Assembly: GCF_003711105.1 (NCBI RefSeq)
Contig: NZ_CP023865.1
Location: 310,001-374,000, forward strand
Reading direction: 5' to 3'
DNA: 64,000 bases
Origin: Actinoplanes teichomyceticus ATCC 31121
GTDB taxonomy: Bacteria > Actinomycetota > Actinomycetes > Mycobacteriales > Micromonosporaceae
The translations under genes and the position numbers were made by a program. The notes beneath the pieces were generated by a model, which saw nothing but the letters and a program-made list of their open reading frames with translations, did not search any database and was not told where the DNA came from. Below are positions 7,299 to 25,314 of the stretch, piece by piece. The first letter of the stretch is position 1. The number at the start of each line of letters is the position of its first letter.

Positions 7299-7321
7299 CG
7301 GCGGGCGCCGCGGTTGCCGGT

Positions 7322-7346: not shown

Positions 7347-7353
7347 GCGGCTC

Positions 7354-8619
7354 CTAATCGCGGAACAACCGCAGCGGCACGGCGGCCGCCATCGCGGCCA
7401 TCCCGGCGTCGTTCGGGTGCAGGTGGTCGCCGCTGTCGTAGGCGGGGTTCAGCCGGAGCGGATCGGCCGGATCCCGCACCGCCGCGTCGAAGTCGATCAC
7501 CCCGTCGTACTCGCCGGAGGCGCGGATCCACCGGTTCAGCGCGGTCCGCTTGCGCTCGTTCTCCGGGCTGTAGAAGCCGAGCGTGTCGTCCTTGAACGGC
7601 AGCACGGTCGCGCCGTACGCCCGCAGCCCGGCCTGATGCGCCCGCGCGATCAACTGGCGGTGAGCCCAGATCAGGTCGTCCGCCGAGACCACCTCGTCCG
7701 GCGGCGCGGACGTCCCCGGATGCCCGAGATCATTCACGCCGAGCAGGACCACCAGGAACGCCGCGCCGGGCTGGGCGAGCACGTCCCGGTCGAAGCGGCG
7801 CAGCGCGCTCTGCCCGAAGTACGCCGCATACCCGACAGCCGGGCTGCCGACCGGTGGGTTCGGGTCGTGCAGCAGCCGGTTGCCGGAGACGCCGACGTTG
7901 GCCACCCCGCGGCGCAGGCGCACCCCGCGCAGCCGCGCGGCGAGCAGGTCGGGCCAGCGGTGGTCGGCGTTCGCGGCGGTGTTCGCGCCGTTGGTGATCG
8001 AGTCGCCGAGCGTGACGATCGCGCTGCCGGCGGCCTGCACGCTCACTCCGGACAGGAACAGGTACTGCTGGATCGTGCTGCTCGGCGTCACGTGCCGAGC
8101 CGCCGTCACGTTGCCGGCGGCGATCACGTTGTCCTGGAACGCGAACGCGGCCAGCGTGGTGACCGGGGTCCGCTCCGGCAGGTGGATGCTGATCACCAGG
8201 TGGGCGCCGCCGGGGACGCGCAGCGCGACCGGGTCGCTGACGATCGGCGCGCCGGCCGGGACGGTGACCGACCCGCGCCCGCCGAAGGTGACCCGGCGGT
8301 CCGTGCCGGGCACGGCGTCGGTGCTCGCGCCGCTGCCGGCGCGCAGCGCCACCCGTACCTCGCCGATCCGCAGCGGGGTGTCGCCGAACTCGTTGGTGAG
8401 CCGGATCCGCAGCCGGTCGCCGCCGAGGCTGAGGCGGACCACCTGGCGCACCGTCTGATCGGTCAGGACCAGGGGCGCGGTGGGCGGGATCGTGGTCGCG
8501 ACGGCCGCCCAGCTGGCGACCTCCCCGGGCGCGCCGGCCGCGGCGGCGGGGCTGCCGGGCAGCGTGCCGACGGCCGCGGCGGCACCGGTGAGTGCGAGGA
8601 CCCGGCGTCTGGTAGTCAT
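7354..8619 (-). CDS. Secreted SGNH/GDSL esterase (putative carbohydrate esterase)
   Basis: 421 residues. The N-terminus TTRRRVLALTGAAAA looks like a Tat-type export signal ending near residue 28. A beta-rich N-terminal domain (about 40-190) precedes the SGNH hydrolase domain with block I VTLGDSITNG (catalytic Ser near 207), the block II glycine in NVGVSGNRLL, block III LLGVNDLG and block V SGDHLHPND supplying Asp and His. Such proteins remove acyl groups from polysaccharides or lipids. It is divergent from the GH10 xylanase gene and shares a palindrome with it, so an acetyl-xylan esterase role is a reasonable inference. GGAGAG precedes the ATG. Confidence 0.85.
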   Translation of the reverse strand: MTTRRRVLALTGAAAAVGTLPGSPAAAAGAPGEVASWAAVATTIPPTAPLVLTDQTVRQVVRLSLGGDRLRIRLTNEFGDTPLRIGEVRVALRAGSGASTDAVPGTDRRVTFGGRGSVTVPAGAPIVSDPVALRVPGGAHLVISIHLPERTPVTTLAAFAFQDNVIAAGNVTAARHVTPSSTIQQYLFLSGVSVQAAGSAIVTLGDSITNGANTAANADHRWPDLLAARLRGVRLRRGVANVGVSGNRLLHDPNPPVGSPAVGYAAYFGQSALRRFDRDVLAQPGAAFLVVLLGVNDLGHPGTSAPPDEVVSADDLIWAHRQLIARAHQAGLRAYGATVLPFKDDTLGFYSPENERKRTALNRWIRASGEYDGVIDFDAAVRDPADPLRLNPAYDSGDHLHPNDAGMAAMAAAVPLRLFRD

Positions 8620-8627
8620 GTCACTCT

Positions 8628-8640
8628 CCGAAAGTTTCGG
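8628..8640. promoter_or_regulatory. Palindromic operator overlapping the esterase ribosome binding site
   Basis: Perfect 13-bp palindrome CCGAAAGTTTCGG. On the minus strand its end forms part of the CGGAGAG ribosome binding site of the esterase gene. The same core appears before the xylanase gene. CGAAA-type palindromes are associated with LacI-family control of Streptomyces xylanase genes; that parallel is from memory. Confidence 0.65.
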
Positions 8641-8793
8641 AAATCTTCGGGACAGATCTTCGTAACGTAGAGCCGCTCATCTATGGCGTCAAGAGCGGAA
8701 TATCCGCTGCTGCGCGATGCGAACGCTCGCTCGATCATCGATGGACAATCTTGACGGCTCCCACTCATTGTGCATAACGTTTCGCCACGTCCT

Positions 8794-8804
8794 CGAAACT
8801 TTCG
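8794..8804. promoter_or_regulatory. Palindromic operator overlapping the xylanase ribosome binding site
   Basis: Perfect 11-bp palindrome CGAAACTTTCG whose last G begins the ribosome binding site GGAGG (8804-8808), 12 nt before the xylanase ATG. Geometry is the same as on the esterase side, so a bound repressor would cover the start region of both genes. Confidence 0.65.
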
Positions 8805-8816
8805 GAGGCTTTTCAG

Positions 8817-9866
8817 ATGAGACTTGGTCGCATCGCCGCGGTCCTCGCGGTCGGTATCGCCATGGCCGGTTCCACGCCGGCCGGCGCCCACCCACGGGCG
8901 GACGACGATTCGCTACGGGCCGCCGCGCGCGGCTCCGGTGTACGGATCGGCACCGCCGTCGACATGTCCGCGCTCGCCGCCGACACGCCGTACCGGGAGG
9001 GCGTGGCCCGTGAGTTCGACACGGTCACCCCGGAGAACGTGATGAAGTGGGAGGCCGTCGAGCCGCAGCCCGGCGTGTACGACTGGGCCGCCGCCGACCG
9101 GCTGGTCGACTTCGCCCGCCAGAACGGGCAGCTGGTCCGCGGGCACACCCTGGTCTGGCACAGCCAGAACCCGGCCTGGCTGACCGAGGCCACGTACACC
9201 CCGGCGCAGCTGCGCACCATCCTGCGCAACCACATCTTCGCCGAGATGGGCCACTTCAAGGGCCGGATCTGGGCCTGGGACGTGGCCAACGAGGTCTTCA
9301 ACGAGGACGGCACCCTGCGCGACACCATCTGGCTGCGGGCGCTCGGCCCCGGCTACATCGCCGACGCGTTCCGCTGGGCCCACCAGGCCGACCCGAAGGC
9401 GCTGCTGTTCCTCAACGACTACAACAACGAGGGCATCAACGCCAAGAGCGACGCGTACTTCGCCCTGGTCAAGCAGCTGCGGGCGCAGGGCGTGCCGGTG
9501 CACGGGTACGGGATGCAGGGCCACCTGGCCGTGCACTACGGCTTCCCCGACACCGTCCTGGAGAACGTGCGGCGCTTCGACAAGCTCGGGCTGAAGACCG
9601 CGTTCACCGAGGTCGACGTGCGGATGCAGCTGCCCACCGACAGTGCGAAGGTGCAGGCGCAGGCCGAGGGATTCGGGTCGCTGCTGCGCGCCTGTCTGCT
9701 GGTGAAGCACTGTGTGTCGTACACGGTGTGGGGATTCACCGACAAGTACTCGTGGGTGCCCGGCGTCTTCGAGGGGGAGGGGTCGGCCACCCCGGCTGAC
9801 GAGAACTTCCAGGTCAAGCCGGCGTGGAACACGCTGCGGGACACGTTCCTGCTGGTCCGCCGCTGA
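8817..9866 (+). CDS. Secreted endo-1,4-beta-xylanase, GH10
   Basis: 349-residue extracellular xylanase. A Sec signal peptide (MRLGRIAAVLAVGIAMAGS, cleavage near AGA-HP, residue 24) is followed by a single GH10 TIM barrel. Visible family landmarks are TPENVMKWE, GHTLVWHSQ, the acid/base glutamate in WDVANEVFNE and the nucleophile glutamate in TEVDVRM. There is no linker or carbohydrate-binding module, so this is a minimal single-domain enzyme releasing xylo-oligosaccharides outside the cell. GGAGG lies 8 nt before the ATG. A GH1 beta-glucosidase in the window (60.0 kb) could act on related sugars but is not linked. Confidence 0.95.
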   Translation: MRLGRIAAVLAVGIAMAGSTPAGAHPRADDDSLRAAARGSGVRIGTAVDMSALAADTPYREGVAREFDTVTPENVMKWEAVEPQPGVYDWAAADRLVDFARQNGQLVRGHTLVWHSQNPAWLTEATYTPAQLRTILRNHIFAEMGHFKGRIWAWDVANEVFNEDGTLRDTIWLRALGPGYIADAFRWAHQADPKALLFLNDYNNEGINAKSDAYFALVKQLRAQGVPVHGYGMQGHLAVHYGFPDTVLENVRRFDKLGLKTAFTEVDVRMQLPTDSAKVQAQAEGFGSLLRACLLVKHCVSYTVWGFTDKYSWVPGVFEGEGSATPADENFQVKPAWNTLRDTFLLVRR

Positions 9867-9891
9867 GGCCAGCACGCCGCATCGGAGACCA

Positions 9892-9922
9892 GGCTGCGCC
9901 GGCACCGTCCGTCGGCGCAGCC
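9892..9922. terminator. Hairpin between convergent xylanase and holB
   Basis: 10-bp perfect inverted repeat GGCTGCGCCG/CGGCGCAGCC (9892-9901 and 9913-9922) with an 11-nt loop between the two convergent stops. Confidence 0.6.
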
Positions 9923-9939
9923 GCTCCCGGCGCGGACGC

Positions 9940-11139
9940 TCAGCCCTTCCAGAGGTTGAGCATCATCGTCTCGACGGCGATCTCCGGTTTGACGTTCTGA
10001 TTGATCGACTCCCGGCAGGCCAGCACCGCCTCCAAGCGGCGCAGCGTGCTCTCCGGCGACCACTTGCGCGCCGCCGCCTCGGACTGCGGCGCCGCGTCCC
10101 CGTGCACCACCGCCACCGGCGCGCGCAGCGCGGTGACCAGCACATCCCGGTAGAACCCGGCCAGGTCCACCAGCGCCCGGTCGAGCGCGTCGCGCTGCGC
10201 CCGGGTGGCCCGCGACTTCTGCCTCTTCTCCAGCTCCCTGATCTGCCCGGCCGCCCCGCGCATCGCGCCGGCCGCGCCCCGGCCGGTGCCGCCCGCGCCG
10301 AGCGCCTGCTCCAGCGCCGAACGCTCCGCGGCGTCGGTCTCCGTCACACTCGCCGCGGCCTCCGCCTTCGCCGCTGTGACCAGGGTCGCCGCCACGTCGA
10401 AGCAGGCACCCACCCCGGTCAGCCGTTTCGGCACCGCCAGCACCGCCTCCCGCCGGGCGCGGGCGTCCGCATCCGCCGCCAGCAGCCGGGCCCGGGTGAT
10501 GTCGCCCTGCGCCGCCGCGGCCGCCCAGGCCGCCGTCTCCGCGGCGAGGCCGTCCCGCTCCACCAGCGCCGCGGCCAGCGCGTCGGCGGGCGGCTGGCGC
10601 AGCGCCACCACCCGGCACCGGGACCGGATCGTCACCGAGATGTCGTCCGGATGCGTGGACGGGGTGCAGAGCAGGAACACCGTCCGCGGAGGCGGCTCCT
10701 CGATCGCCTTGAGCAGCGCGTTGCCGGCCGCCTCGGTGAGGCGGTCGGCGTCCTCGATCACCACGACCTGCCAGCGCCCCCCGGACGGCGCACTGGCCGC
10801 ACGCAACACCAGGGCGCGCATCTCCCCGACGCCGATGGAAAGCCCTTCCGGTACGACGAAGCGCACATCCGCGTGCGTGCGGCCGAGCACGGTGTGGCAG
10901 CCGTGACACTCGCCGCAGCCGCTCCCCTCCCGCTGACACTGCAGCGCCGCGGCGAACGCGCGCGCGGCCAGTGACCGCCCCGAGCCGGGCGGCCCGGTGA
11001 AGATCCACGCGTGGGTCATCGCCCCGCTGCCGACCGGCTCGCCGGCCACCACTCGGGCGGCGGCCGCGGCGGCCAGGCGCAGGGTCTCGACCGGCTCGTC
11101 CTGGCCCACCAGGTCGGAGAAGACATCGTGCGAGGTCAC
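9940..11139 (-). CDS. holB: DNA polymerase III delta' subunit
   Basis: 399-residue clamp-loader subunit of the AAA+ superfamily, a stator in the complex that loads the beta clamp. The Walker A position reads GPPGSGRS: the catalytic lysine is arginine, which fits delta' being unable to hydrolyse ATP. A zinc-binding cluster follows (CQREGSGCGECHGC), then the SRC-type arginine-finger motif (TIRSRCR). A GTG start gives MTSHDVFSDLVGQDEPVETL, the usual N-terminus. In many Gram-positives tmk, holB and ricT are close neighbours; here tmk and holB are separated by a convergent xylan cassette, and holB is on the opposite strand to tmk. Confidence 0.93.
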   Translation of the reverse strand: MTSHDVFSDLVGQDEPVETLRLAAAAAARVVAGEPVGSGAMTHAWIFTGPPGSGRSLAARAFAAALQCQREGSGCGECHGCHTVLGRTHADVRFVVPEGLSIGVGEMRALVLRAASAPSGGRWQVVVIEDADRLTEAAGNALLKAIEEPPPRTVFLLCTPSTHPDDISVTIRSRCRVVALRQPPADALAAALVERDGLAAETAAWAAAAAQGDITRARLLAADADARARREAVLAVPKRLTGVGACFDVAATLVTAAKAEAAASVTETDAAERSALEQALGAGGTGRGAAGAMRGAAGQIRELEKRQKSRATRAQRDALDRALVDLAGFYRDVLVTALRAPVAVVHGDAAPQSEAAARKWSPESTLRRLEAVLACRESINQNVKPEIAVETMMLNLWKG

Positions 11140-12972: not shown

Positions 12973-13320
12973 ATGTTCACCGCCTCGCCGAGATCGCCGA
13001 AGATGCGCAACATCGCCGGTGACCCGCGGGTCTCGGTCGGTCTCTGCGCGCCGCTGGCCGGGCCGGCCAGCAGCCGCGGCGCGACTCCTCGGCCGCGCCC
13101 GGGTGCCCGGCCGGACGACCCGGCGCGGCTGCCCTGCCGGGAGGGGTTCCGCCGGGAGAGCGAACACGCCCGACGCGGCCGCCCGCTCACCGAACCACCC
13201 GCGGAGACCCTGGTCGTCATCGAGCCGGACCGCATCGTCTGCACCGAACACTGGATCCGCCGCGACGGTTTCGCCCCACGCCCGATCCGGCGGCGGCCCG
13301 CCCCTGACCGCGGAACCCGT
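12973..13320 (+). pseudogene. Possible remnant of a pyridoxamine-phosphate-oxidase-like gene
   Basis: Within a 600-bp stretch without an intact gene, this frame contains KMRNIAGDPRVSVGLC, which resembles the start of PNPOx-like flavin-binding proteins (K-x-R-N-x-x-x-D-P-R-V-S), and later ETLVVIEPDRIVCTEHWIR, like the C-terminal strand of the same family. The middle is low-complexity and no start with a ribosome binding site is seen. I read it as a decayed copy; the similarity is weak. Confidence 0.3.
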
Positions 13321-13477
13321 GTGCCCGCACGATCGACAGGTCGTGCAGGTGCCGCTGGTTGGTGGCCGCCTACCGAACCGGCCCGATCCGGCCGGTAGGC
13401 GACCACCAAGTCACTGTCGTGACGCGGAGCCGGGCATGTCGCTCATCCCGACGTCCGCAGTCTCCCCCGGCGCCTGC

Positions 13478-13583
13478 TGAGCGGGCGATCCGGAACATCA
13501 TGAGTCCTGGCGGCGCTGCCGGCCGCCCGATGAGCGGGCGATCCGGAACATCATGAGTCCCGGCGGCGCTGCCGGCCGCCCAG
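13478..13583. repeat. 53-bp direct duplication at the 3' end of the LPITG gene
   Basis: Two adjacent 53-bp copies (13478-13530 and 13531-13583) differ at only a few positions. The right copy contains the last codons and stop of the surface-protein gene; the left copy lies outside it. This is a recent tandem duplication of a gene end. Confidence 0.9.
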
Positions 13584-15428
13584 CAGGAATGCGCACAGCC
13601 CGCCGGCCAGCAGCCCCGCCCCGGTGATGAAGAGCTGCCCGATCGGCGGACCGGTGATCGGCAGCGTCTCGCGCGTCGCCCGCGTTCCGGCCCCGGCGGA
13701 CCGCTCGCCGGGCTCCGGCGTCACGGCGGCCGCCTCCAGCATCCCGATGCCGAGGTCGGCGACCACCGTGGACGGTTTCCGCCCGTCCCCGGCCGCACCG
13801 GCGGTACGCAGCACCGACACTTTGATCGCGGTGGCCCGGGCCACGAGCGCGCGCCCCTTCGTGGCCTGCCGGGCCTCGCCGAGCGACACCCGGACGATCA
13901 CCCCGCCGGTGCCGTCCGCCGCCGGTGCCCCGGCTCCCGGCGGGCCGGACTTCGCCGTGGACGGCGCCGGCAGCCCGGGAATCGACGGTAGCGGCGAGGC
14001 CCCGGCGGGCAGCACCGGTACGAGCTCGGACTCGGTCACCGGCCCGAGGTCGCGCAGGGTGACGTCGACGTGGTCACCGGGCGCGTCGAGACGCGTACCG
14101 GAAAGGCCCGAGCCGGACACCTCGACGACCGCGGGCCGATAGCGGACCTCGCCACCGTCCACGGCCGACATGCCGACCCGCAGGGTCGGCGCCCGCAGCA
14201 CCCGGACCCGCACCCGGCCACCGGCGAGGTCGATCCGGCCGGCGTTCACGGTCGCCGAGGCGACCGATTCCGCGCGTCCGCCGCGCCGGTTCAGCGCGGT
14301 GCTGCTCAGGCTCGACATCCTTTCCGGTACGCGCACCAGCTCCCCGTTCCCGCCGGTCAGCGTGACGCTGTCCAGCCTCGTCGCGGACCGTGAGATCTCC
14401 CCGCCGGCCGCCCCGCAGCCCATCGCCGTTTCCCAGCGCGCGTACGCGGACACGGTTCCGCCACCCACCTGGAGCGGTCCGAACCGCCCCGGCCCGGTGT
14501 GCTGCTCGGTCGGCTCCGGGTGCGACGGTGGCGCCTGCTGCAACACCTGCTCCGCGGCGGGCGCGCCGGGTGCCCGACCGTTCAGCACCAGCCCGGCCGC
14601 CGCGGACTTCACCGGCGCGTTCGCGATCATGACGGTACGGGCGTCGCCGACCCCGACACCGCGGATCAGCGGTGCACGGTCCCCCGGGCGGCGGCCGAGC
14701 GTGGCGGGAACGAGCCTGCCAGCCGGTGGCGCCACCGGGGCGGACACGTTCGATCCGGTGCCGTCGCGGGCACCGGCCGGGTCCGGCGGCCCGTCGGCCG
14801 GCCTGCCGTTCACGCTCGGCGGCCCGTCGGCCGGACCGCCGTTCGCGCCTCCTGGGCCGTCGGGGCGGGCCGGACCGCCGGAGCCGCCCGGACTCTGCGG
14901 GGACGGCGGGGCGCTGTCCGTCGTACCCGAGCCGGCCGGAGGCCGCCCGCCACCCGGCGCCGGAGTGCCCGCGCCGGGCTCCTCCGGCGCCGGCCCGGTG
15001 CTCTCCGGTGGCGTCGTCGACGGCCGCTCCCGGCCCTCGCCCTCCGGGATCCCTCCCTCGTGCTCGCGTTGCGGGACACCGCGCAGGTCCAGCCGCTGCA
15101 CCCGGAGCAGCTCCGCCTCGGCCTGCGCCGCATACCGCTCGGCCCGCGCACACCGCGCCGGAGCGATGCGCCCGGCGGCGGATCCGGCGCGCCCGGCGGC
15201 GGATCCGGCGCGCCCGGCCCCCGCCGCCACCGGCCCGCCGATCGCCGCGGCGAGCCGGGACGGCGAGACTCCGGGGCCGGGTGCCGCCACCCCGGGTGGG
15301 GGCATCGACGCGGCCCGCGCCGCGGCGCTCACCTCGGGCGATGCGGCGAGCGCGGGCAGCGGCGCGGCGAGCGCGCCCGCGAAGCCGAGCGCGGCGACGC
15401 TGGCGGCCATCGACCTGGCGGGTGTCAT
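13551..15428 (-). CDS. Secreted, sortase-anchored surface protein (LPITG motif)
   Basis: 625 residues. A Sec signal (MTPARSMAASVAALGFAGAL, cleavage near ALA-AS) leads into an Ala/Gly/Pro-rich region with short repeats (GRAGSAA; GRPADGPP) up to about residue 270. A beta-rich globular part follows (about 300-560) with two cysteines at most. The C-terminus has ETLPITG, a hydrophobic segment (LFITGAGLLAGGLCAFLLGG) and a positive tail RQRRRDS: a complete cell-wall sorting signal. AAAGGAA precedes the ATG. It resembles actinobacterial LPXTG/LAETG-anchored proteins of unknown role. No sortase gene is in the window. Confidence 0.78.
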   Translation of the reverse strand: MTPARSMAASVAALGFAGALAAPLPALAASPEVSAAARAASMPPPGVAAPGPGVSPSRLAAAIGGPVAAGAGRAGSAAGRAGSAAGRIAPARCARAERYAAQAEAELLRVQRLDLRGVPQREHEGGIPEGEGRERPSTTPPESTGPAPEEPGAGTPAPGGGRPPAGSGTTDSAPPSPQSPGGSGGPARPDGPGGANGGPADGPPSVNGRPADGPPDPAGARDGTGSNVSAPVAPPAGRLVPATLGRRPGDRAPLIRGVGVGDARTVMIANAPVKSAAAGLVLNGRAPGAPAAEQVLQQAPPSHPEPTEQHTGPGRFGPLQVGGGTVSAYARWETAMGCGAAGGEISRSATRLDSVTLTGGNGELVRVPERMSSLSSTALNRRGGRAESVASATVNAGRIDLAGGRVRVRVLRAPTLRVGMSAVDGGEVRYRPAVVEVSGSGLSGTRLDAPGDHVDVTLRDLGPVTESELVPVLPAGASPLPSIPGLPAPSTAKSGPPGAGAPAADGTGGVIVRVSLGEARQATKGRALVARATAIKVSVLRTAGAAGDGRKPSTVVADLGIGMLEAAAVTPEPGERSAGAGTRATRETLPITGPPIGQLFITGAGLLAGGLCAFLLGGRQRRRDS

Positions 15429-15548
15429 GGCGGTTCCTTTCGACGCGAGCCGCCGGGGCGGCGTCTACGGGACTGGCCAACGAAGGTCGATGGGGGTGGT
15501 TGCGCGGTATCTATGCGACAACCCTCGCGGGTAGTTCAAAACCGGCAT

Positions 15549-15577
15549 TTGGTGCGGCTTGCTCGGGGCCGTAGGGT
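15549..15577 (+). promoter_or_regulatory. Promoter of the RicT-like gene (leaderless)
   Basis: -35-like TTGGTG (15549-15554), 17-bp spacer, -10 TAGGGT (15572-15577). The ATG at 15585 lies 7 nt beyond, so the predicted transcript starts at or next to the start codon, and no ribosome binding site is present. Confidence 0.55.
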
Positions 15578-15584
15578 TGGTCGC

Positions 15585-16427
15585 ATGGGCATGCTGTGCG
15601 CGGTCAGCTTCAACCGGTATGGCCGCCTCTACTACCTCGACCCGGGTGAGTTCACGCCCTCGGTCGGCGACCGCGTGCTGGTGCCGACCGACGACGGCCC
15701 CGAGGTGGCGGAGTGCGTCTGGGCGCCGCAATGGGTCACCGAGGACACCGACGGCTTTCCCAAGATCATGGGGCTCGCCGCCGACGACGACCTGCGCCGC
15801 GACGAGCTGCTCCGCAAGCGCAAGGCCGAGGCCAAGGTCGCCGCCAAGAAACTGATCAAGGCGCACGAGCTGCCGATGAAGGTTGTCGCCGTCGATCACG
15901 TGCTGGACCAGGGCGGCGCCAACGGCCCGCGTACGACGATCTACTTCACCGCCCCGCACCGGGTCGATTTCCGCTCACTGGTCCGGGACCTCGGCGCCAC
16001 CCTGCACTGCCGGGTCGAGCTGCGCCAGCTCTCCGCCCGCGACTCGGCCCGGGTGCAGGGCGGCATCGGCTCGTGCGGCCGGGACCTGTGCTGTGCCACC
16101 TTCCTCACCGACTTCGAGCCGGTCACCATCCGGATGGCGAAGGACCAGGACCTGCCGCTCAATCCGCTGCGCATCTCCGGCGCCTGCGGACGCCTGATGT
16201 GCTGCCTGAAGTATGAACATCCGCTGTACGCCCGTTTTGCGGAGTCCGCCCCCTCCATCGGCTCGCGAGTGACGACGCCTGAAGGCGACGGTCGGGTGGT
16301 CGCACACAGCGTCCCCAAAGACTCCGTGATCGTGCGGATGGATGCGGACGGCTCCCGATGCTCGTGCTCACGAGCTTCCGTCTGCGGGCCGAGACAGGCA
16401 CATGAGGAGCGATACAGCGAAGGCTGA
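15585..16427 (+). CDS. ricT: PSP1-domain protein, RicT/YaaT homologue
   Basis: 280 residues. The PSP1 C-terminal domain is clear: VELRQLSARDSARVQGGIGSCG, then CGRDLCCATFL and GRLMCCLKYEH, giving the conserved cysteines used for Fe-S cluster binding in Bacillus RicT, which with RicA and RicF affects RNase Y-dependent mRNA processing. RicA and RicF partners are not seen here, so the role in this organism is open. Proximity to holB and tmk matches the conserved tmk-holB-ricT neighbourhood of Gram-positives. A serine/cysteine-rich tail (RCSCSRASVCGP) is extra. The ATG at 15585 begins the conserved MLCAVSFNRYG region. Confidence 0.78.
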   Translation: MGMLCAVSFNRYGRLYYLDPGEFTPSVGDRVLVPTDDGPEVAECVWAPQWVTEDTDGFPKIMGLAADDDLRRDELLRKRKAEAKVAAKKLIKAHELPMKVVAVDHVLDQGGANGPRTTIYFTAPHRVDFRSLVRDLGATLHCRVELRQLSARDSARVQGGIGSCGRDLCCATFLTDFEPVTIRMAKDQDLPLNPLRISGACGRLMCCLKYEHPLYARFAESAPSIGSRVTTPEGDGRVVAHSVPKDSVIVRMDADGSRCSCSRASVCGPRQAHEERYSEG

Positions 16428-16511
16428 GCTCCACGGGACCGGGTGGATGACCAGGTCACCCACCGAGCAGGTCGGCCCCGGGGACCATCTGGTCCGCACC
16501 GTCGCCGAGGG

Positions 16512-17057
16512 TCAGGCAACCCGGCCGAGACGTGCGAGAACCCGGGTGGTGCGATCGCCGTCGGTGGTGGTGATCGCTGGTCGGCACATGCCGTCCATGT
16601 GCAGAGCCTCGCCGAGGCGGTCGGCGCCCTGCTCGATCCGGTCGAGCTCGGCGTCGGTGAGGCCGGCGTCAAGCCCGGCGGCGCGGGCCAGGTCCCACCG
16701 GTGGATGTACATGTCCCACACGTAGAACTGCTCGAAAGTCGCCCCGATCGTCGTCGGGCCGAAGAACCAGTCGATGGTCCGGCCGACGTGGTCGTCATCC
16801 GCCAGGGCGTCGAGCACACGCCGGGTGTGCTGGTGCCACGCGGCGACCGGGTCGGTGTCGAAGTCCGGCGCACTGCCGAGATTCACGCCGTTGGTGGTCA
16901 GCGTCTCATGCTGGGTCTCGGCGAGATGCCTGACGACGTCCCGCGCGCTCCAGCCCGCGCAGGGGGAGGGCGCGTCCCATGCCTGCGGCGGCACCGCCTC
17001 GACGACGGCGGTCAACGGGCGGAGGGCGGTCTGGTACTGCGTCGCGGTGTCGGTCAT
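16512..17057 (-). CDS. TIGR03086-type DinB/mycothiol-dependent metalloprotein
   Basis: 181-residue four-helix protein of the DinB/maleylpyruvate isomerase superfamily. Metal-ligand histidines fit VRHLAETQHE (about 42-51) and MYIHRWDLARA (about 133-143), and WDAPSPCAGWSARDVVRHL is the family N-terminal signature. Some relatives are mycothiol-dependent isomerases or transferases; the substrate here is unknown. It is divergent from an AraC-type regulator with only 38 bp between starts, a common pairing that suggests control by that regulator. Confidence 0.8.
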   Translation of the reverse strand: MTDTATQYQTALRPLTAVVEAVPPQAWDAPSPCAGWSARDVVRHLAETQHETLTTNGVNLGSAPDFDTDPVAAWHQHTRRVLDALADDDHVGRTIDWFFGPTTIGATFEQFYVWDMYIHRWDLARAAGLDAGLTDAELDRIEQGADRLGEALHMDGMCRPAITTTDGDRTTRVLARLGRVA

Positions 17058-17095
17058 GCGTGGGACCCTATGAGCATGGCTCCAGGTGGGACTTG

Positions 17096-17971
17096 ATGAA
17101 ACCCGACACCGCCGGCGGCATCGACGTCGACGCTGAGGCCGGCGTCGTCGTGAGCACGGTGCGCCGTAACCCGGCGGAGCTGGCGCATCTGACCGGCCCG
17201 CCCGACGCCTGTCACCGGACCTACCGGCACGCCGCGAGCGCGGACCTCGCCGGGCTGCTGCGTCGGTTCTGGATTCCGGTCTGGTCCGTGCCGCCGGGGG
17301 AGGAGGCGCCGCAGCGGATCCTGCAGGATCCCGCCTGCCTCGTCGTGATCGGCGGCGACTACGCGCGCTTCTACGGCGTCGCGCCCGAGCTGTCGACGAC
17401 GACGCTCAGCGGTGACGGATGGGCCGTCGGGTTGGTGCTGGCGCCGGCTGCGGGTCACAGGATCGCCGGCCCGGTCGGCGACCTCAATGACCGCTACGTC
17501 GACCTGGAGGAGGTGCTCGGCGACGACGGGCGAGCCGTCGCCGACCGGGTACGGAGCCTTATGGCGCCGAATCCGCACGACCCGGCGGCCCACCGAGCCG
17601 TCATGGGCGCGTGCGAGGACACCTTGCGACGCTTCCTGCCGCTCGACGCGGACGGCGAACTCGTCAACGCTCTGGTCGCCGCCGTCGAGAACGATCGGGA
17701 ACTGCTGCAGGTCGCGCAGATCTGCGAGCGGTTCGACATCGGCGAGCGAGCCCTGCAGCGCCTCCTGCGCCGCCGCCTCGGGCTCACCCCCAAGTGCCTC
17801 ATCCAGCGCCGGCGGCTGCAGGCGGCCGCTGAGCGGCTGCGTCGGGAGAGCACCACTCAGGCCGATCTGGCCGCCGCCGTAGGCTACGCCGATCAGGCGC
17901 ACATGATCCGGGACTTCGTGCACGTCACCGGGACGACCCCCGGGCAGTTCCCCGCGGCGCAGCGATCATGA
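17096..17971 (+). CDS. AraC-family transcriptional regulator
   Basis: 291 residues. The N-terminal sensing region (about 25-175) is of the small uncharacterised type with FWIPVWSVPPGEE and DRYVDLEEVLG. The C-terminal AraC domain (about 190-285) holds two helix-turn-helix units, ERFDIGERALQRLLRRRLGL and AAAVGYADQAHMIRDFVHVT, and ends GTTPGQF as in the family. AGGTGG lies 6 nt before the ATG at 17096. It likely regulates the divergent DinB-like gene and itself from the 38-bp gap. Effector unknown. Confidence 0.83.
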   Translation: MKPDTAGGIDVDAEAGVVVSTVRRNPAELAHLTGPPDACHRTYRHAASADLAGLLRRFWIPVWSVPPGEEAPQRILQDPACLVVIGGDYARFYGVAPELSTTTLSGDGWAVGLVLAPAAGHRIAGPVGDLNDRYVDLEEVLGDDGRAVADRVRSLMAPNPHDPAAHRAVMGACEDTLRRFLPLDADGELVNALVAAVENDRELLQVAQICERFDIGERALQRLLRRRLGLTPKCLIQRRRLQAAAERLRRESTTQADLAAAVGYADQAHMIRDFVHVTGTTPGQFPAAQRS

Positions 17972-19964: not shown

Positions 19965-20038
19965 GCCGCCTTAGCTCAGTCGGCTAGAGCGACGCACTCG
20001 TAATGCGTAGGTCGTCGGTTCGATTCCGACAGGCGGCT
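19965..20038 (+). tRNA. tRNA-Thr (anticodon CGT)
   Basis: 74-nt cloverleaf without encoded CCA. Acceptor arms GCCGCCT and AGGCGGC pair fully; the anticodon stem ACGCA/TGCGT encloses loop CTCGTAA with anticodon CGT at 19999-20001; the T arm contains GGTTCGATTCC. The 3' half is the integration site of the adjacent element. Confidence 0.95.
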
Positions 20039-20039
20039 C
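19997..20039 (+). repeat. attL: tRNA-Thr 3' half
   Basis: 43-bp copy of the integration site, running from the anticodon loop to just past the acceptor stem. It matches 25146-25188 with one mismatch (G at 20007 against T at 25156). Confidence 0.92.
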
Positions 20040-20047
20040 GGGGAGAA

Positions 20048-20079
20048 AGCCCAGGTCAGTGACCTGGGCTTCTTCTTTT
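20048..20079 (+). terminator. Terminator after tRNA-Thr
   Basis: Stem AGCCCAGGTC/GACCTGGGCT (20048-20057 and 20061-20070) with an AGT loop, followed by TCTTCTTTT. A diverged copy follows attR. The integrase fragment on the other strand ends inside it. Confidence 0.85.
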
Positions 20080-20565
20080 GAAGAGATCGACGACGGCGTC
20101 CGGTAAGCCCGCAGTCCGCAGATGGTCCGCGCCCCGTGTGGCGGTCTGGTCGAGGCGGTCCGCTACGTGGTCGAGGTCGCCCTCGAAGAGGTCCGCGTAC
20201 ACGTCGAGGGTCATGGCCGCGGAGGCGTGGCCGAGCATCCGCTGGACCGCCTTGACGTTGGCGCCGGCCGCCACAGCGAGAGACGCCGCAGTGTGCCGCA
20301 GGTCGTGCGGAGTCAGGCCGGTCAGGCCCACCGATTCCGCCGCCGGAGTGAAGAACCGGGGCCGGAAGTTCGTGTTCCGCAGCGGCCCTCCGTTCGGCGA
20401 AGTGAACACGAGCGCGTCTCTGGACTTGCCGGCAACGTGAGCGGCCAGTTCCTCGACGAGGAAACGCGGGATCGGCACGGAGCGCCGCTGGTGGTTCTTC
20501 GGAGTGCCCTCGATCAGCTCCCCACGTACTTCGCTGAATACCACCGCCACGTTGACCCGGCGCCT
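20056..20565 (-). pseudogene. C-terminal fragment of a tyrosine-recombinase integrase
   Basis: About 165 codons matching the C-terminal catalytic domain of phage/AICE integrases: GTPKNHQRRSVPIPRFLVEEL, then the His-x-x-Arg box in LTPHDLRHTAASLAV, a histidine in VQRMLGHASAAMTLDVYADLF and the nucleophile Tyr in the same stretch. The N-terminal arm-binding domain and the first catalytic arginine are absent; the frame runs directly into RepSA sequence at about 20560. It cannot be active as it stands. It lies next to attL, as int does in AICEs. Confidence 0.85.
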
Positions 20566-20846
20566 GCGTACTGGACGTTCCAACCCACGGCGCGGCGCAG
20601 GTTCTGCCAATACCTGTCGAGCAGCCGTGGGAAATGGACGGCGTCCCAGGCCGCGCCGATAGTCGTACCGGGCCGGGTCGATGGGTGTGCCGAGCAGCGG
20701 GTCATCGTCGGTGTGCCGGCGACGGCAGGCACACGGCCGCCCGGCGTGGATCGAGTGGACCGGGCCGTAACTGTCCAGGGTCGGAGTCAGCCACATCGAG
20801 GGCCGGTGCTCGAGCGCAGGGATGCGTTGGAAATACTCACCGACCT
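20560..20846 (-). pseudogene. N-terminal/middle fragment of an AICE replication initiator (RepSA type)
   Basis: Two frames joined by a small frameshift near 20650 read RPSMWLTPTLDSYGPVH, then DDPLLGTPIDPARYDYRR and AWDAVHFPRLLDRYWQNLRR and AVGWNVQYAG. This is the conserved central part of RepSA-type initiators from pSAM2-like elements (P-S-M-x-L-T-x-T-L-x-S-Y-G and F-P-x-L-x-D-R-x-W-Q-N-L-R-R), recognised from memory. The usual continuation is missing because the sequence passes into integrase at about 20560. A deletion therefore removed the rest of repSA, any xis and the integrase N-terminus. Confidence 0.8.
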
Positions 20847-20932
20847 AACGTGCGACCACACCCCTGCTCTATGCCATGAAGGCTGGATGGGATGGCGGAA
20901 GGGCGGCAGCTGCCTTCGAGTGGCCGACCTAA

Positions 20933-21799
20933 CTAAGCAAAGGTTCGAAGGAACGCAATCGCATCAATGGCGCCGGCAAAACTAGCCTCAATGTGATCGC
21001 CGTTGGTGTAGACCAGCCTAACTTCGAACCGAATAAATCGCGCAGTCGCGGGACCGATTGAGTAAGAGTCGATAGCCAAGATGGCTTGCTCTAGTTCGGT
21101 GAACTGTTGCGGATTGCCATGCAGAGGAACTACAGTGACGTAGTCGACCTTGCGAATAATGCGCCCCTCTAGCTCCGCAACAAAGACTTCAAGATCTTTT
21201 TTCATGGTCTCGCGCAGATCGGCAGCTAGCTCTTGGCGCTTCGGTAGAGATTTGCCATTAAAAGCGTCGCATTGCTTCTGCCAAAAGTGATCTGGGGTGC
21301 CCTCACCGAGTCCGTTGATGTCAATCCCGTGTCGCGAGAATACCGCCACTGTCCGGACGAAGTCAAAATGAAGCACAACGTATCCATTGGTCGTAAGCTG
21401 GGTGAGAGCTGGCTTGGTCCACTCGCCAGCTACGACGGCGGCCCCGGTTGGCTTCACTTTAGCCCATGCCATAAGGACCGGGTCCAAAGCACCAGAAATT
21501 TCCTGGGCTTTAGCTTTGCTGTGTTTTGTATATCGACGCCATGCCGACTCGATGAATGCAGCTGGATTCCCCTGCTTACTCCTGGTGCCGCCGCGTTCAA
21601 GCACGAAATCGAGATCGTGCCCATTACCCTTACCGTCCCGCCATGTCACCTTCTTCCCTGAGCGGACCCCCGGCCTATCCCCGAAGCTGTCAAGGTAAAG
21701 GTCGTGCTTTCGGGCAAGATCCTGCAAAACAGGCTTGAGTGCTGCTTCCAACACACCGCCGATGATCTGCCCTAACAAGTGACCAGGTGCTTCTGCCAT
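20933..21799 (-). CDS. Probable type II restriction endonuclease
   Basis: 288 residues. Its ATG overlaps the methyltransferase stop by one base (TGATG), so the two are translationally coupled. HDLDFVLERGG (about 57-67) and AFIESAWRRYTKHSKAKAQEI (about 78-98) give an acidic-core pattern compatible with a PD-(D/E)XK nuclease, and the second stretch resembles enzymes encoded next to type II methyltransferases. Assignment rests on this pattern plus the coupling; the target sequence is unknown. Codon use is clearly less GC-rich than the chromosomal genes. An in-frame ATG 20 codons upstream (21859) lies inside the methyltransferase gene and is less likely. Confidence 0.68.
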   Translation of the reverse strand: MAEAPGHLLGQIIGGVLEAALKPVLQDLARKHDLYLDSFGDRPGVRSGKKVTWRDGKGNGHDLDFVLERGGTRSKQGNPAAFIESAWRRYTKHSKAKAQEISGALDPVLMAWAKVKPTGAAVVAGEWTKPALTQLTTNGYVVLHFDFVRTVAVFSRHGIDINGLGEGTPDHFWQKQCDAFNGKSLPKRQELAADLRETMKKDLEVFVAELEGRIIRKVDYVTVVPLHGNPQQFTELEQAILAIDSYSIGPATARFIRFEVRLVYTNGDHIEASFAGAIDAIAFLRTFA

Positions 21800-23082
21800 C
21801 AGTCGACCACCCAAAGCCGTCCCTCGTGGAGCGGCACTCGATGCTTCCGATTTTCCCACTTATCGTTACGAGTGCGAACCTTCTCAAATCTCCAGTCACG
21901 GAAGCCTGCTGCGATAGCAAGCGTGCCAAGCCACTTTTCGACGGGAACATGAACTCCGTAGGGTGCGGAGTCGCCGACAACGAAACATACTTGGCCACCA
22001 GTGGCAGTGGACCGTCGAATCTGTTGCCAAGCGGTGGCCATGTCATCGAAGTACGCCACAATCATCGAGTGATAAGCTTTCTTACCTCCTTTCGTCTGTC
22101 GAACCTCCGCTAGTTCAGCGTAAACCTCGGCGAGTTCCGCGCGTATGGGATCAAGGCCCGGCGAACTTTCCAGAACAGCATGGCCGTCATACCGGGCCAT
22201 CTGCTGCGTACATGACCGTACAAGTTTTTGCCGGAGCGGCTTAAGGTCGCCCCAGGATGCGATATCGCCAAGAAAGGTCATTTCCAATCTGGCGCTATCG
22301 GCATAATCATAGTTGTTGGCGTATGGCGGCGATGTGATCACTAGGTCCGCCCAACCTTCGCCAATTTCGAAGGGTTGCCTTACGTCAGCCTCAGAAAGCA
22401 GTGCCTGTGGCGCGGAAGGTAGCTCAGACTGGCGCAATGCCATGTCGCGGCCCATAATCTCTACTTGCTCTTGGAACGCATCGAAAGCCAGAGCCACCTT
22501 GGCTTTAGACTTGCCAGGGAGGACATACTGCCATTGTGCCGTACCCACGGGTGAACACTTACGAAGGATGGCAACCAAAGCTAACCACAGCAGGTCATCG
22601 ATGTCATCCCCCTGCTTGTACTCGTCGAGGGCGTTACGAAGAGCGAGCAAGGGACCAAGCGACTCCGGGGGGAAGCACTTGACGGTAAGATCGCTAGCCT
22701 CCGACAAGTCAGGTTGCAGATCATCGGCAGCAGCAATGACCTTCTTGGCGCGGACTCGAAACTCGTCTACGTTGGCGCTCCAGAGGAGCTTAGCTTGAGC
22801 TACGCGAGCGACAAAGGGGTGGAGCTCGACCCCTGCGCTCTCGGCTCCCACTGCTTGGGCTGCGAGTAGCGTCGTGCCAGAGCCCGCGAACGGATCTAGG
22901 ACGCGTCTTGCGGCATGCTTCTCAACCTCGGTTGCTACCCAGTCCGCGGAGAAGCCAGCTGAGTAGCGGAACCATCGGTGAACTGGCAGGGACATGTTGT
23001 TCGCAAAGGTCGTGCTGTTCGTCGACCTCCGCGTTACCGCCGCGGGCTCGGCGAAGAGGGTCGATTGAATCGGCTGTGGCAT
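21799..23082 (-). CDS. DNA methyltransferase (amino-methyltransferase, probable m4C type)
   Basis: 427 residues. S-adenosylmethionine motif I is RVLDPFAGSGTTLLAA (about 60-75) and catalytic motif IV is TSPPYANNYDYAD (about 258-270); SPPY is typical of N4-cytosine and some N6-adenine enzymes. The roughly 190 residues between the motifs would hold target recognition. Together with the coupled nuclease gene it forms a type II restriction-modification unit. Start: ATG at 23082 is preceded by TAGCAT (minus strand, 23094 to 23089) and only 6 nt, with no ribosome binding site, so the message is probably leaderless. Lower GC than its surroundings points to horizontal origin. Confidence 0.88.
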   Translation of the reverse strand: MPQPIQSTLFAEPAAVTRRSTNSTTFANNMSLPVHRWFRYSAGFSADWVATEVEKHAARRVLDPFAGSGTTLLAAQAVGAESAGVELHPFVARVAQAKLLWSANVDEFRVRAKKVIAAADDLQPDLSEASDLTVKCFPPESLGPLLALRNALDEYKQGDDIDDLLWLALVAILRKCSPVGTAQWQYVLPGKSKAKVALAFDAFQEQVEIMGRDMALRQSELPSAPQALLSEADVRQPFEIGEGWADLVITSPPYANNYDYADSARLEMTFLGDIASWGDLKPLRQKLVRSCTQQMARYDGHAVLESSPGLDPIRAELAEVYAELAEVRQTKGGKKAYHSMIVAYFDDMATAWQQIRRSTATGGQVCFVVGDSAPYGVHVPVEKWLGTLAIAAGFRDWRFEKVRTRNDKWENRKHRVPLHEGRLWVVD

Positions 23083-23339
23083 GGGGCGATGCTACGGCAC
23101 AGATGACATAGACGGCGTTTGCAGTGCCGCTAGGAACAGGGGTAGGGACCGGCAGCGGGCGGCGAACGGAAGCACGGGACACGGGCGGCCAAGCTGTGTC
23201 GAGGGTCAGGGAGCGTTTGCCCGCGTTCGAACACGTGTGTCCTAGTCTCGCACGCATCGCGCGAACCCAAACCACAGACAGGAGTCTTGCGCCGGTTAGT
23301 CAATCTTGGCGTTTTCATCCATCCGCAACGCTGGGCGCC

Positions 23340-23367
23340 TTGTCGAAGACATCTGGACGTGTACGGT
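23340..23367 (+). promoter_or_regulatory. Leaderless promoter of the EVE-like gene
   Basis: -35-like TTGTCG (23340-23345), 16-bp spacer, -10 TACGGT (23362-23367), then 6 nt to ATG at 23374. The 291-bp gap 23083-23373 also contains the divergent methyltransferase promoter. Confidence 0.5.
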
Positions 23368-23373
23368 GAGGGC

Positions 23374-23898
23374 ATGGTTGATCAGGCGGCTCACCTTTTC
23401 GTGATCGGGGAACGCCGAGCGCTCGCATGGGTCCTCACACAATCAAAGATGGGTTTCACCAAGCCTGGCGATGCACGGTCCCTATCGGCAGGGGATATTG
23501 CTTACATATACACGACCAGATCATGCTTTGGTAATCCAAAAGTCCATCGAAGCCGCGTCATTGGTAAAGCCCGAGTGCTTTCCAAAATTCGCTACTTGAG
23601 CCGACGGCAGATAGTTGGCGGACATATCATTTCAGCCGACTGCGAGATTGAACTGATGAACCTATGTCCGTACGGAGATGGTGTTGACTTTGCGGCCCTC
23701 GTTCCCAGACTTTCTGGTTTTACAGACTCTGGGTGGGCCACCCAAGTCCGGCGCAGCGCTCGACCGCTGGCCCAAGGGGATGCGAGCATATTGAGTGCCG
23801 AACTGCATAAACTGGCTGCCGCACCCGCCCTCGTTATCCAAGATTATCTGACCCGGGAAGATAGTGGGGCGGCAAGCCATGACGCCGGTCGTGCGTAA
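23374..23898 (+). CDS. EVE/PUA-like domain protein
   Basis: 174 residues from ATG 23374. The pattern HLFVIGERRALAWVL, SLSAGDIAYIYTTRSCFGNP and SRVIGKARVLSK resembles the EVE/PUA-like fold (G-D-x-x-x-x-Y and I-G-x-x-x-V features), a small domain that in other systems binds modified bases in DNA or RNA. It is encoded divergently from the restriction-modification pair, so recognition of modified DNA is an attractive inference, but the family match is by eye and no catalytic domain is attached. Composition is less GC-rich than the chromosome, as for the rest of the cargo. Confidence 0.6.
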   Translation: MVDQAAHLFVIGERRALAWVLTQSKMGFTKPGDARSLSAGDIAYIYTTRSCFGNPKVHRSRVIGKARVLSKIRYLSRRQIVGGHIISADCEIELMNLCPYGDGVDFAALVPRLSGFTDSGWATQVRRSARPLAQGDASILSAELHKLAAAPALVIQDYLTREDSGAASHDAGRA

Positions 23899-24039
23899 CG
23901 AATCGCAATGAATATGCTGGCGTTGACAGCTAAAGCTGACACCTACCTGCTCGCTCGTGCTTGACGAATTGCTCGACGGTCGCGCCCGCCCAATGCTGCG
24001 GCATGAACAGACTGCCGAATTAGTCTTTTCTGGATCAAG

Positions 24040-24059
24040 GCGCCGCGCAAGCGCGGCGC
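24040..24059. repeat. 20-bp palindrome in the mobile element
   Basis: Arms GCGCCGCGC (24040-24048) and GCGCGGCGC (24051-24059) around AA, in the 250-bp gap before the membrane protein gene. It may be a terminator for the gene at 23374 or a protein-binding site of the element. Confidence 0.6.
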
Positions 24060-24148
24060 GGGCCGGTCGCGCTCGGCCTGCTGGCGGGCTCCGCCGGCAT
24101 CGGCCGGCACGCCGGCCAGGACTTGATCGACGCGGACACAATGACGCC

Positions 24149-24904
24149 ATGGGTGAGGTTCAAAGCTGGGTGGTGCCGATCAGTGCGAAGACCGCTGGCG
24201 CGTTGGTGGGCGGCGGCGTTGGAAGCTTGATCGTGCTGGCCGGCTTGGCGACAAGCAATCCGCTGCTGGTGATCGGGGGGCCGGCGTTGGCCGCTGCGGC
24301 CACTGAGCGCATGACCGAATTTGCTGTGAAGCAGTGGACCGATCGAGCGGAGCGCGTCGAGCGATTCGGGACTACTGCTGCTGAGCAGTCGGGTACCTCG
24401 CTGGAGACGCTGCTCGATGATGCGGTAGCGGATCCACAGAAGCTGGAGGTTCTCAGCCGGGCGGCTGAGGCCGCATCACGGGCTCTCGATCAGGAGAAGA
24501 TCGATCTGCTGGCCCGCGTCTACGCATCAGGCGTTTACGACCAGGCGTTGATCGATGAGAGCAACATCCTGATCGACAATATTCGACAGATCGAGGGGCC
24601 GCACATCCGAGTCATGCAGGTCTTGGCCTCGCCAGGTCCGCGCACCTTGAAGATCGGCGAGAAGGACGCAGGGCAAACGATCGAGGCTTGGCCAGAACCG
24701 GAACTTGCCGTCGCGGCCAAGGCTGGAGATGCGTTGTCGGCGCTCATCGCGAAGCTGGTCAGCCTAGGGTTCGTCTACGACGAGGGACAGGGGCGTTGGG
24801 ACTACCAGCCGTTCTGGCAGCTCACTCCTCTCGGTAGGAACTGCCTCACCTACCTGGCACAGAGGGTGCCGTCGGACCACGATGGTGTCGGGTCGGCGTC
24901 GTAG
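24149..24904 (+). CDS. Membrane-anchored protein of unknown function, element cargo
   Basis: 251 residues. A hydrophobic hairpin (about 12-50: AGALVGGGVGSLIVLAGLAT then NPLLVIGGPALAAAA) is followed by a long helical cytoplasmic part (ALDQEKIDLLARVYASGVYD and DESNILIDNIRQIEGPHIRV) and a C-terminal region ending FWQLTPLGRNCLTYL, which looks like a winged-helix end (LTPLGR). I do not recognise a family. It lies between the EVE-like gene and attR and is therefore cargo. A membrane helper or effector of the defence island is possible but unsupported. The ATG at 24149 has a weak ribosome binding site. Confidence 0.62.
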   Translation: MGEVQSWVVPISAKTAGALVGGGVGSLIVLAGLATSNPLLVIGGPALAAAATERMTEFAVKQWTDRAERVERFGTTAAEQSGTSLETLLDDAVADPQKLEVLSRAAEAASRALDQEKIDLLARVYASGVYDQALIDESNILIDNIRQIEGPHIRVMQVLASPGPRTLKIGEKDAGQTIEAWPEPELAVAAKAGDALSALIAKLVSLGFVYDEGQGRWDYQPFWQLTPLGRNCLTYLAQRVPSDHDGVGSAS

Positions 24905-25145
24905 ATGCTGCCGCGCCGCTTCGCGGCTTGCCCTCGAATATCGGGGTGCGGCGGTGGCGATGGTCGCTGAGGGCTCGTGCGGTTGTGCGCGGTAGCGCCG
25001 ACCACGAGAGACGACCGGCCAAGATCGAGTAGTCCGCATCTGGTCCGCGCGAAGTCCGCAGAGGCAGTGAAGTGCTGTCAGATCTTGACAAGCGTTTCCG
25101 CAGTTCAGCGACGTTCGCGCAGCTAGATCAACGATTTTGTTTGGT

Positions 25146-25188
25146 CTCGTAATGCTTAGGTCGTCGGTTCGATTCCGACAGGCGGCTC
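25146..25188 (+). repeat. attR: second copy of the tRNA-Thr 3' half
   Basis: Matches 19997-20039 with one mismatch that would break the anticodon stem. There is no 5' half, so it is not a tRNA gene. The 241 bp before it (24905-25145) are the element's right arm; I see no gene there. Confidence 0.92.
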
Positions 25189-25194
25189 AGAAAG

Positions 25195-25229
25195 AAACCC
25201 CAGGTCACCGACCTGGGGTTTCTTCTTTT
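25195..25229 (+). terminator. Terminator copy after attR
   Basis: 12-bp stem AAACCCCAGGTC/GACCTGGGGTTT (25195-25206 and 25210-25221) followed by CTTCTTTT; a diverged copy of the hairpin behind tRNA-Thr. Confidence 0.75.
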
Positions 25230-25314
25230 GATGAATTCCACGACGGTCCGGTCCGTCGATGGTTCGCATCCTGCCGTGCGACCCGGTCGAGCGGTCCGCC
25301 ACCCGGTCGAGGGG
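25216..25314 (-). pseudogene. Second integrase 3' remnant outside attR
   Basis: On the minus strand DRVADRSTGSHGRMRT followed by GPDRR aligns with HVADRLDQTATRGADHLRT and LPDAVV at the end of the 20.1-kb integrase fragment, and the DNA past the hairpin is likewise similar. This is the end of a second, related integrase, placed where an element previously inserted at the same tRNA would have had its own. The interval 25230-25473 holds nothing else that I can recognise. Confidence 0.6.

Follow-up and report, generated by a model that had tools for sequence, protein, structure and literature searches.

We analyzed a 64,000-nt stretch of the genome of Actinoplanes teichomyceticus ATCC 31121 (contig NZ_CP023865.1, forward-strand positions 310,001 to 374,000; hereafter, the window, to which unlabeled positions refer), which is part of a single-contig assembly of 8.29 Mb. 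Our subject is a 5.15-kb element that lies between a tRNA-Thr(CGT) gene and a copy of the 3' half of that gene. We find that this element is very probably a decayed actinomycete integrative and conjugative element (AICE) that has retained an apparently intact restriction-modification (R-M) pair, and as such it is a clear example of AICE decay that leaves defence cargo in a chromosome. The wider point concerns a widespread, covarying hairpin near the right end of many AICEs, which we call BLK, and a short motif (M3) that follows it.

The element is bounded by a repeat of the tRNA-Thr 3' half

Both attachment sites (attL and attR) are still present (Table 1). The earlier note on this DNA, made from the sequence alone, had described a 43-bp repeat of the tRNA-Thr(CGT) 3' half bounding 5.1 kb, and this is borne out by ARAGORN and by the repeat comparison, in which 42 of 43 positions match. 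An att repeat at the 3' end of a tRNA gene is what one expects of an AICE. The direct repeat in fact spans 75 nt at 89% identity (19997-20071 and 25146-25220), with one base differing in the 43-nt tRNA part, and the homology runs beyond the tRNA half, across the terminator, into integrase coding DNA (19997-20176 and 25146-25312; 76% identity, E = 3e-32). Because the homology continues into coding sequence, we read the right repeat as the junction to an older remnant. The integrase scrap to the right of attR therefore implies that this tRNA-Thr site has, by accretion, received at least two elements. A comparable integrase scrap, judged by eye, follows tRNA-Thr at another locus (L085).

Relatives of the window integrase sit at tRNA-Thr in several congeners, at one of which (L080) there are two further att copies; consequently, we regard the gene as an integration hotspot. 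In 11 of the 12 att pairs that we compared (the window, L072, L073, L077 to L083, and L090), the att copy carries the T-arm base pair of the host tRNA-Thr (T-A or A-T), as if the att copies remain matched to the host tRNA gene.

An integrase stub is joined to an internal fragment of RepSA

Next to attL, the minus-strand frame 20056-20796 matches the tyrosine integrase family Phage_integrase (PF00589, E = 2.2e-14) as well as RepSA (NF041486, E = 1.1e-10, 41 bits; Pfam RepSA, E = 1.8e-7, 31.1 bits). The NF041486 score lies far below the cut-off of 700, which is set for the full-length model, as expected for a fragment, and the Pfam cut-off of 34 is slightly missed. In tblastn comparisons, the RepSA fragment is split over two frames (20850-20653 and 20654-20562, with 76% and 94% identity), and its DNA is 85% identical to positions 8508-8761 of locus L039, an AICE in the same genome. 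The junction between integrase and RepSA lies at 20562-20564. Thus, the earlier claim that minus-strand RepSA passes into the C-terminal half of an integrase is upheld by two profile libraries and by the comparison with relatives; of the two RepSA motifs quoted in its support, it can be said that RepSA is present and that the motifs lie in different frames. The region at 20.56-20.85 kb does resemble RepSA, and chance similarity was rejected given the two libraries (NF041486 and Pfam) and the 85% nucleotide identity to a full-length repSA.

The rest of an AICE backbone is missing. When the integrase, the excisionase-like (xis-like) protein, RepSA, TraB, GntR, and two further L039 proteins were compared by tblastn with 19965-25312, the integrase and RepSA alone matched. 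Within this interval, two TraB queries found no match, GntR found none, and xis gave no credible match, its one 15-residue hit (E = 0.048) being taken as noise. Set against an intact AICE, the element lacks a complete integrase with xis, a complete RepSA gene, and an FtsK-like TraB.

The predicted loss of xis, of one end of RepSA, and of the integrase start agrees with what is left, namely integrase residues 217-376, RepSA residues 275-371, and no xis. Attributing these losses to a single deletion fails: one deletion does cover the integrase-RepSA junction, but RepSA residues 1-274, traB, and kor are gone too. A RepSA piece that has neither end and carries a frameshift calls for two losses or more.

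Apparently intact relatives show the order from which the element probably decayed

The genome that holds the window also holds an apparently intact 12.7-kb AICE at tRNA-Arg(CCT) (L039; G000:C1:514001-534000), with a 62-nt att repeat. It encodes an integrase (Pfam integrase match barely above the cut-off), RepSA, an FtsK_SpoIIIE protein (TraB), and a GntR/UTRA regulator, and carries BLK and M3; one small open reading frame (ORF) is read as an excisionase. A further ORF (9398-9925 of that locus) matches no Pfam family, its label Spd being given from position alone. Near its right end, L039 shares two further blocks with the window, with their order and orientation kept. In a congener, an AICE occupies the very same tRNA-Thr (L077, genome G030). 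Its integrase (377 aa) belongs to the same family as that of the window (81% identity), an ORF with an HTH_17 domain lies between int and RepSA, and an att copy is found 12.8 kb away; its TraB was called from 33% identity to the L039 TraB (E = 6e-48), with no Pfam match at E = 0.01. At a third locus (L176) the order is tRNA-Gly, int, RepSA, TraB (FtsK_SpoIIIE), a GntR relative, BLK, M3, and att, of which the window retains the first and last parts without the middle.

Apparently intact relatives of the kind that the earlier note had named as support, with xis and tra genes, are therefore present both at the same tRNA-Thr (L077, with the xis-like ORF and the TraB relative) and in the same genome (L039). 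Together with L176, they support the repSA-xis-int-att order, the integration at tRNA-Thr, and the AICE origin that it had put forward. The reading as an AICE remnant holds because the window keeps the ends of its relatives' gene order: AICE-specific gene fragments lie in AICE order between the att copies, and the right end runs BLK, cargo, M3, and att as in the apparently intact relatives.

The element can be placed among described ones. With pSAM2-type AICEs (RepSA, TraB/FtsK, and a tyrosine integrase at a tRNA 3' end) it shares the att repeat at the tRNA 3' end, the order repSA-xis-int-att, the RepSA family, and cargo near the other end; unlike them, it has no complete int, xis, rep, tra, or kor. 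An AICE of the same genus, pACPL of Actinoplanes sp. SE50/110, is by contrast intact, with int, xis, repSA, tra, and spd, and extrachromosomal copies of it are reported in PMC3364876. For Streptomyces, PMC9513070 (Choufa et al. 2022) describes defective AICEs (DAICEs), defined by the presence of traB with int and/or rep missing, and accreted AICE remnants. These share with the window element the decay, the accretion of several elements at one tRNA, and R-M genes among the cargo. DAICEs keep traB, whereas the window element lacks it and is therefore not a DAICE but what that source calls a remnant devoid of traB.

Table 1. Features of the tRNA-Thr element and its edges (window positions)
Feature	Position	Strand	Basis or remark
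tRNA-Thr(CGT)	19965-20039	+	ARAGORN, Rfam tRNA
attL, 3' half of tRNA-Thr(CGT)	19997-20039	+	Direct repeat
Tyrosine integrase, C-terminal part	20056-20564	-	Residues 217-376 of the 377-aa L077 integrase, 81% aa identity; PF00589
RepSA, internal fragment	20562-20850	-	Residues 275-371 of a 660-aa RepSA of the same genome; both ends gone; frameshift near 20654
Type II restriction endonuclease gene	20933-21802	-	PADLOC REase_II PDLC03525, E = 5e-125, profile positions 1-287 of 288; open throughout
Type II DNA methyltransferase gene	21799-23082	-	PADLOC MTase_II PDLC03306, E = 3e-159; PF01555; open throughout
Cargo ORF	23374-23898	+	174 aa; 2 relatives besides itself in protein search
BLK, conserved double hairpin	24011-24117	+	32-copy alignment, covariation, model R1; no Rfam match at E<=1
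Slot cargo ORF	24149-24904	+	74% homologue in L098, from another genome, where it too comes directly after BLK
M3, motif closing the cargo slot	24907-24932	+	26 nt identical to consensus
attR, 43-nt copy of tRNA-Thr 3' half	25146-25188	+	42/43 match to attL, one mismatch
Terminator hairpin and C-terminal remnant of a second, older integrase	25189-25312	+	Integrase coding sense on - strand; outside the 5.15-kb element

The cargo includes an apparently intact R-M pair

The restriction endonuclease (REase) and methyltransferase (MTase) genes are adjacent, full-length members of type II families, each spanning almost the whole of its PADLOC profile, and so form, at the gene level, a type II R-M system. 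The REase start overlaps the MTase stop by four bases, and as judged from the reading frames the pair looks intact and coupled. The AlphaFold2 (AF2) model of the REase has a mean confidence (pLDDT) of 91. Foldseek returned weak matches for it, of which the sole one with E < 1e-3 was AF1548 (titled as of unknown function), while BstEII, BsoBI, EcoO109I, and Can2 appear among the weaker rows. On this model, a PD-(D/E)XK fold is likely, not proven; a PDB sequence search with the REase gave nothing useful. Among 67 genomes of the genus, the REase gene occurs in the source genome alone, as expected for recently acquired cargo.

Neither of the two other ORFs (23374-23898 and 24149-24904) has a Pfam or PADLOC match at E = 1. 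The AF2 model of the 174-aa product of the former (pLDDT 50) was not used; in our impression, the sequence has an EVE/PUA-like look. The R-M pair is thus the only recognisable defence among the cargo, and there is no ground for calling the other two ORFs defence genes. Of the earlier statement that the defence cargo comprises the only intact genes, the part concerning the R-M pair stands, as the pair looks intact; the two further ORFs are open as well and match no Pfam or PADLOC model.

BLK is a covarying hairpin found across the family

In an alignment of 32 copies, BLK has sharp edges, and in the MAFFT alignment 8 of its 30 base pairs show changes on both sides. In a model-fitted alignment of 49 distinct sequences, which leans towards structure, 96.6% of the cells pair and 15 of the 30 pairs show two-sided changes, compared with 4.3 pairs in shuffled controls (0 of 500 reach 15) and at most 7 for slid structures. 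It appears that selection maintains the fold of this sequence. A known RNA family was rejected, as Rfam gave no match over BLK. Intermediates between paired states comprise 17 G-T and 22 A-C cells when column pair 79-135 is left out (p = 0.52); this lack of strand preference mildly favors a DNA-level structure over an RNA leader of the cargo gene, while column pair 79-135, which is T-G in 37 of the 49 sequences, speaks the other way. We found no description of BLK or M3 in the literature that we searched, which does not establish their absence from print.

With covariance model R1, we obtained 36 BLK matches in 15 of 20 near-complete genomes of the genus, and in a sample of the family matches occur in 63 of 101 genomes and in 28 of 44 genera. 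Outside the family they are weak (at most 43.6 bits). Plasmids gave one partial hit (37% of the query), and the phages searched gave none.

The link between BLK and AICEs was examined from both ends. Starting from RepSA, 8 of 31 loci in the 20 genomes (the window being one of them), compared by hand, have BLK on the opposite strand within ~12 kb; given 36 BLK matches, a rough chance estimate for this is 8e-12. A ninth locus, in G076, has BLK ~4.4 kb away on the same strand and is also the exception to the orientation of BLK, which is constant in most loci with AICE genes. The remaining 22 RepSA loci have no BLK listed within 15 kb. G023 contains RepSA and just one weak BLK match, not near it, and G024 has two BLK matches 200 bp apart.

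Starting from BLK, we considered 20 loci across the family, hand-chosen among the better matches and mostly from single-contig genomes, two of them belonging to one tandem array. In 15 of these, the 15 kb preceding BLK contain AICE protein matches on the opposite strand, and M3 (at least 26 nt) follows within 2 kb in 12. A further 20 loci from the genus were chosen mostly for having no RepSA match nearby. AICE transfer proteins are found in three of them (L169, L175, and L176), integrase pieces in four more, and a weak GntR match alone in four; in the other nine, no AICE protein was recognised within ~10 kb, and these could be heavily eroded remnants or elements of a different kind. M3 follows BLK in 10 of these 20 genus loci, once at 2.6 kb.

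The distance from M3 to att is 209-210 bp in L163, L169, and L176, ~240 bp in the window, and 410 bp in L039. In the 21 loci with both motifs, the interval from BLK to M3 measures 63-1141 bp, and a six-frame comparison sorts these intervals into 17 groups that show no similarity to one another at E = 1e-4; three of the groups are common to 2, 3, and 2 loci. One sharing group consists of the window and L098. BLK and M3 therefore enclose a variable cargo slot with some sharing.

Three loci with BLK deserve mention in their own right. The source genome has another BLK-cargo-M3 unit (L040, G000:C1:1300001-1318000, positions 6598-7425); tRNA-Gly and tRNA-Pro lie ~10 kb away, and nearby there are integrase-like sequences and no listed RepSA match. 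L197 (7500-14021) contains three 570-bp repeats, each of which ends in BLK and has different DNA after it, which look like accreted minimal AICE remnants. In G139 (C1:3884789-3948973; L195 and L196), five BLK matches are spaced ~16.0 kb apart; both units that were read match int, RepSA, and TraB (in one of them, TraB is in pieces), and the whole looks like a tandem array of one AICE.

Decay with retained cargo is favored over alternative histories

In the history that we propose, one deletion would have removed the start of int, xis, and the 3' end of RepSA (junction at 20562), and at ~20850, where RepSA gives way to the R-M genes, at least one further event, a deletion or a replacement, would have taken the 5' part of RepSA, traB, and kor. 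The apparently intact R-M pair and the two other cargo genes would have been left behind. With this gene content the element should be unable to excise, replicate, or transfer alone. Since it still has both attL and attR, a same-family integrase could in principle mobilise it, and for the same reason the earlier note's statement that the element is fixed goes beyond what is seen. Its retention would be owed to the R-M pair, which could restrict incoming DNA and whose loss could be costly to the host; we consider the pair the probable reason that the element has been kept.

Two observations weigh against this history. The left neighbour, a metallophosphoesterase gene, adjoins tRNA-Thr in 19 of the 20 loci fetched from congeners, so that half of the sister-locus comparison suggested in the earlier note succeeded. 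The window's right neighbour, on the other hand, was not found beside tRNA-Thr in any relative, so the comparison yields no exact empty site; the best relative of this neighbour (L010, genome G007) lies on a different contig from the tRNA-Thr of G007. In addition, the nearest named relative of the MTase (74%; L215 of Actinoplanes solisilvae, 8001-10085) lies less than 1 kb from a tRNA-Ser, with no AICE protein, BLK, or REase match in the 17 kb fetched, and the R-M genes may thus have arrived after the decay. Indeed, this MTase homologue is what one would expect if the R-M genes were never AICE cargo and instead entered an already decayed stub as an independent defence island, and the loss of RepSA up to the R-M side is what an insertion with deletion would give. 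Published AICE cargo nevertheless includes R-M genes (PMC9513070). Moreover, the pair occupies the place that in L039, from the GntR gene to BLK, is taken up by variable genes (some four larger ORFs, picked by eye, at 13044-17241), and we find a later insertion of this kind rather doubtful.

A different question is whether the decayed AICE is still alive as a passenger. Cis-mobilisable elements (CIMEs) are derived from integrative and conjugative elements (ICEs), and the window element resembles them in being an att-bounded island without an integrase or transfer module, in tandem with another element; it differs in being of AICE lineage rather than from an ICE with a type IV secretion system, and its mobilisation is hypothetical. 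In such a case, selection would keep the att sites, and the element would move when a related AICE enters tRNA-Thr and both excise together. The near-identical att copies (42/43), the related integrases at tRNA-Thr in several congeners, and the two further att copies of L080 fit this scenario, and PMC9513070 proposes that tandem helpers mobilise defective AICEs in cis. Yet no copy of the element, with the REase as marker, occurs in 66 other genomes of the genus, and at the DNA level the source genome has no further integrase of the window's family among the matches listed, which together make a live element unlikely. Even less probable, in our view, is that BLK and M3 are the ends of a mobile gene cassette with a swappable gene and do not belong to the AICE backbone. 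Both motifs do keep one orientation and bound mostly unrelated DNA of 63-1141 bp, G100 has three BLK copies with different downstream DNA within 6 kb, and 9 of the 20 genus loci have no recognised AICE protein within ~10 kb of BLK. Where AICE genes are recognised, however, BLK and M3 hold a fixed place relative to these genes and to att; the repeated unit in G100 also takes in ~450 bp before BLK, as accreted elements would; and no recombinase was seen tied to the BLK-M3 pair. Insertion of such a cassette into int is also unlikely, given that the N-terminal part of int is unmatched beyond BLK in the six loci described below, apart from 14 residues in G083. We therefore retain a decayed AICE with its own cargo as the best explanation as a whole.

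BLK may be a replication site and a recurrent breakpoint

Single-strand origins (ssos) are hairpin-rich, and BLK shares with them a folded structure that appears to be under selection. Our best guess, made by analogy, is that BLK may be an sso, or else some other site recognised in single-stranded form during rolling-circle replication, because it usually occurs once per element, usually in one orientation, is folded, and varies without clear strand bias. The sso of the actinobacterial rolling-circle plasmid pIJ101, called sti (PMC4170104), is likewise a noncoding site in a rolling-circle element, the likeness being one of analogy.

To ask where integrases break, 26 integrase places were picked by eye among the matches listed, four of which gave no integrase match. 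Seven are complete or almost complete, and 13 are clearly truncated N-terminally. Two others, in which the first 73 or 114 residues found no match (G024 at 4917 kb and G065:C84, the latter in two frames), were kept out of the truncated set. For six of the 13 (G080, G076, G032, G019, G083, and G078), or 6 of 15 with the two unclear copies, the break falls within or right beside a copy of BLK, and this copy too is cut or rearranged. The window, whose stub joins RepSA, is not one of the six. A naive binomial calculation with a 1% target gives 2e-9 for 6/13 and 8e-6 for 4/13; it treats the events as independent, a doubtful assumption for G032 and G083, which break at nearly the same position, and ignores selection to keep cargo. 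These counts are suggestive of BLK as a recurrent integrase breakpoint.

Taken together, we tentatively propose, as a scheme that we ourselves think has less than an even chance of being right, that the RepSA-type Micromonosporaceae AICEs seen here carry BLK as a so far undescribed structured cis-acting site that, with M3, frames a swappable slot beside attR; that BLK acts on single-stranded DNA, most likely as an sso; and that its hairpins are a preferred breakpoint, so that elements decay repeatedly to att, integrase stub, BLK, cargo, M3, and att. The 9 of 20 genus loci with BLK and no recognised AICE protein lower the odds of this scheme. If BLK is AICE-specific, small gene-poor AICE remnants could be found without any AICE protein, BLK would be a candidate replication or transfer site open to testing, and it might be explained why AICE decay often stops at the same place.

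At L162 (8474-10105), an L039-type integrase is matched in two pieces; within ~120 bp after it comes a 5'-truncated BLK copy, which may be a further case of a deletion that ended in BLK.

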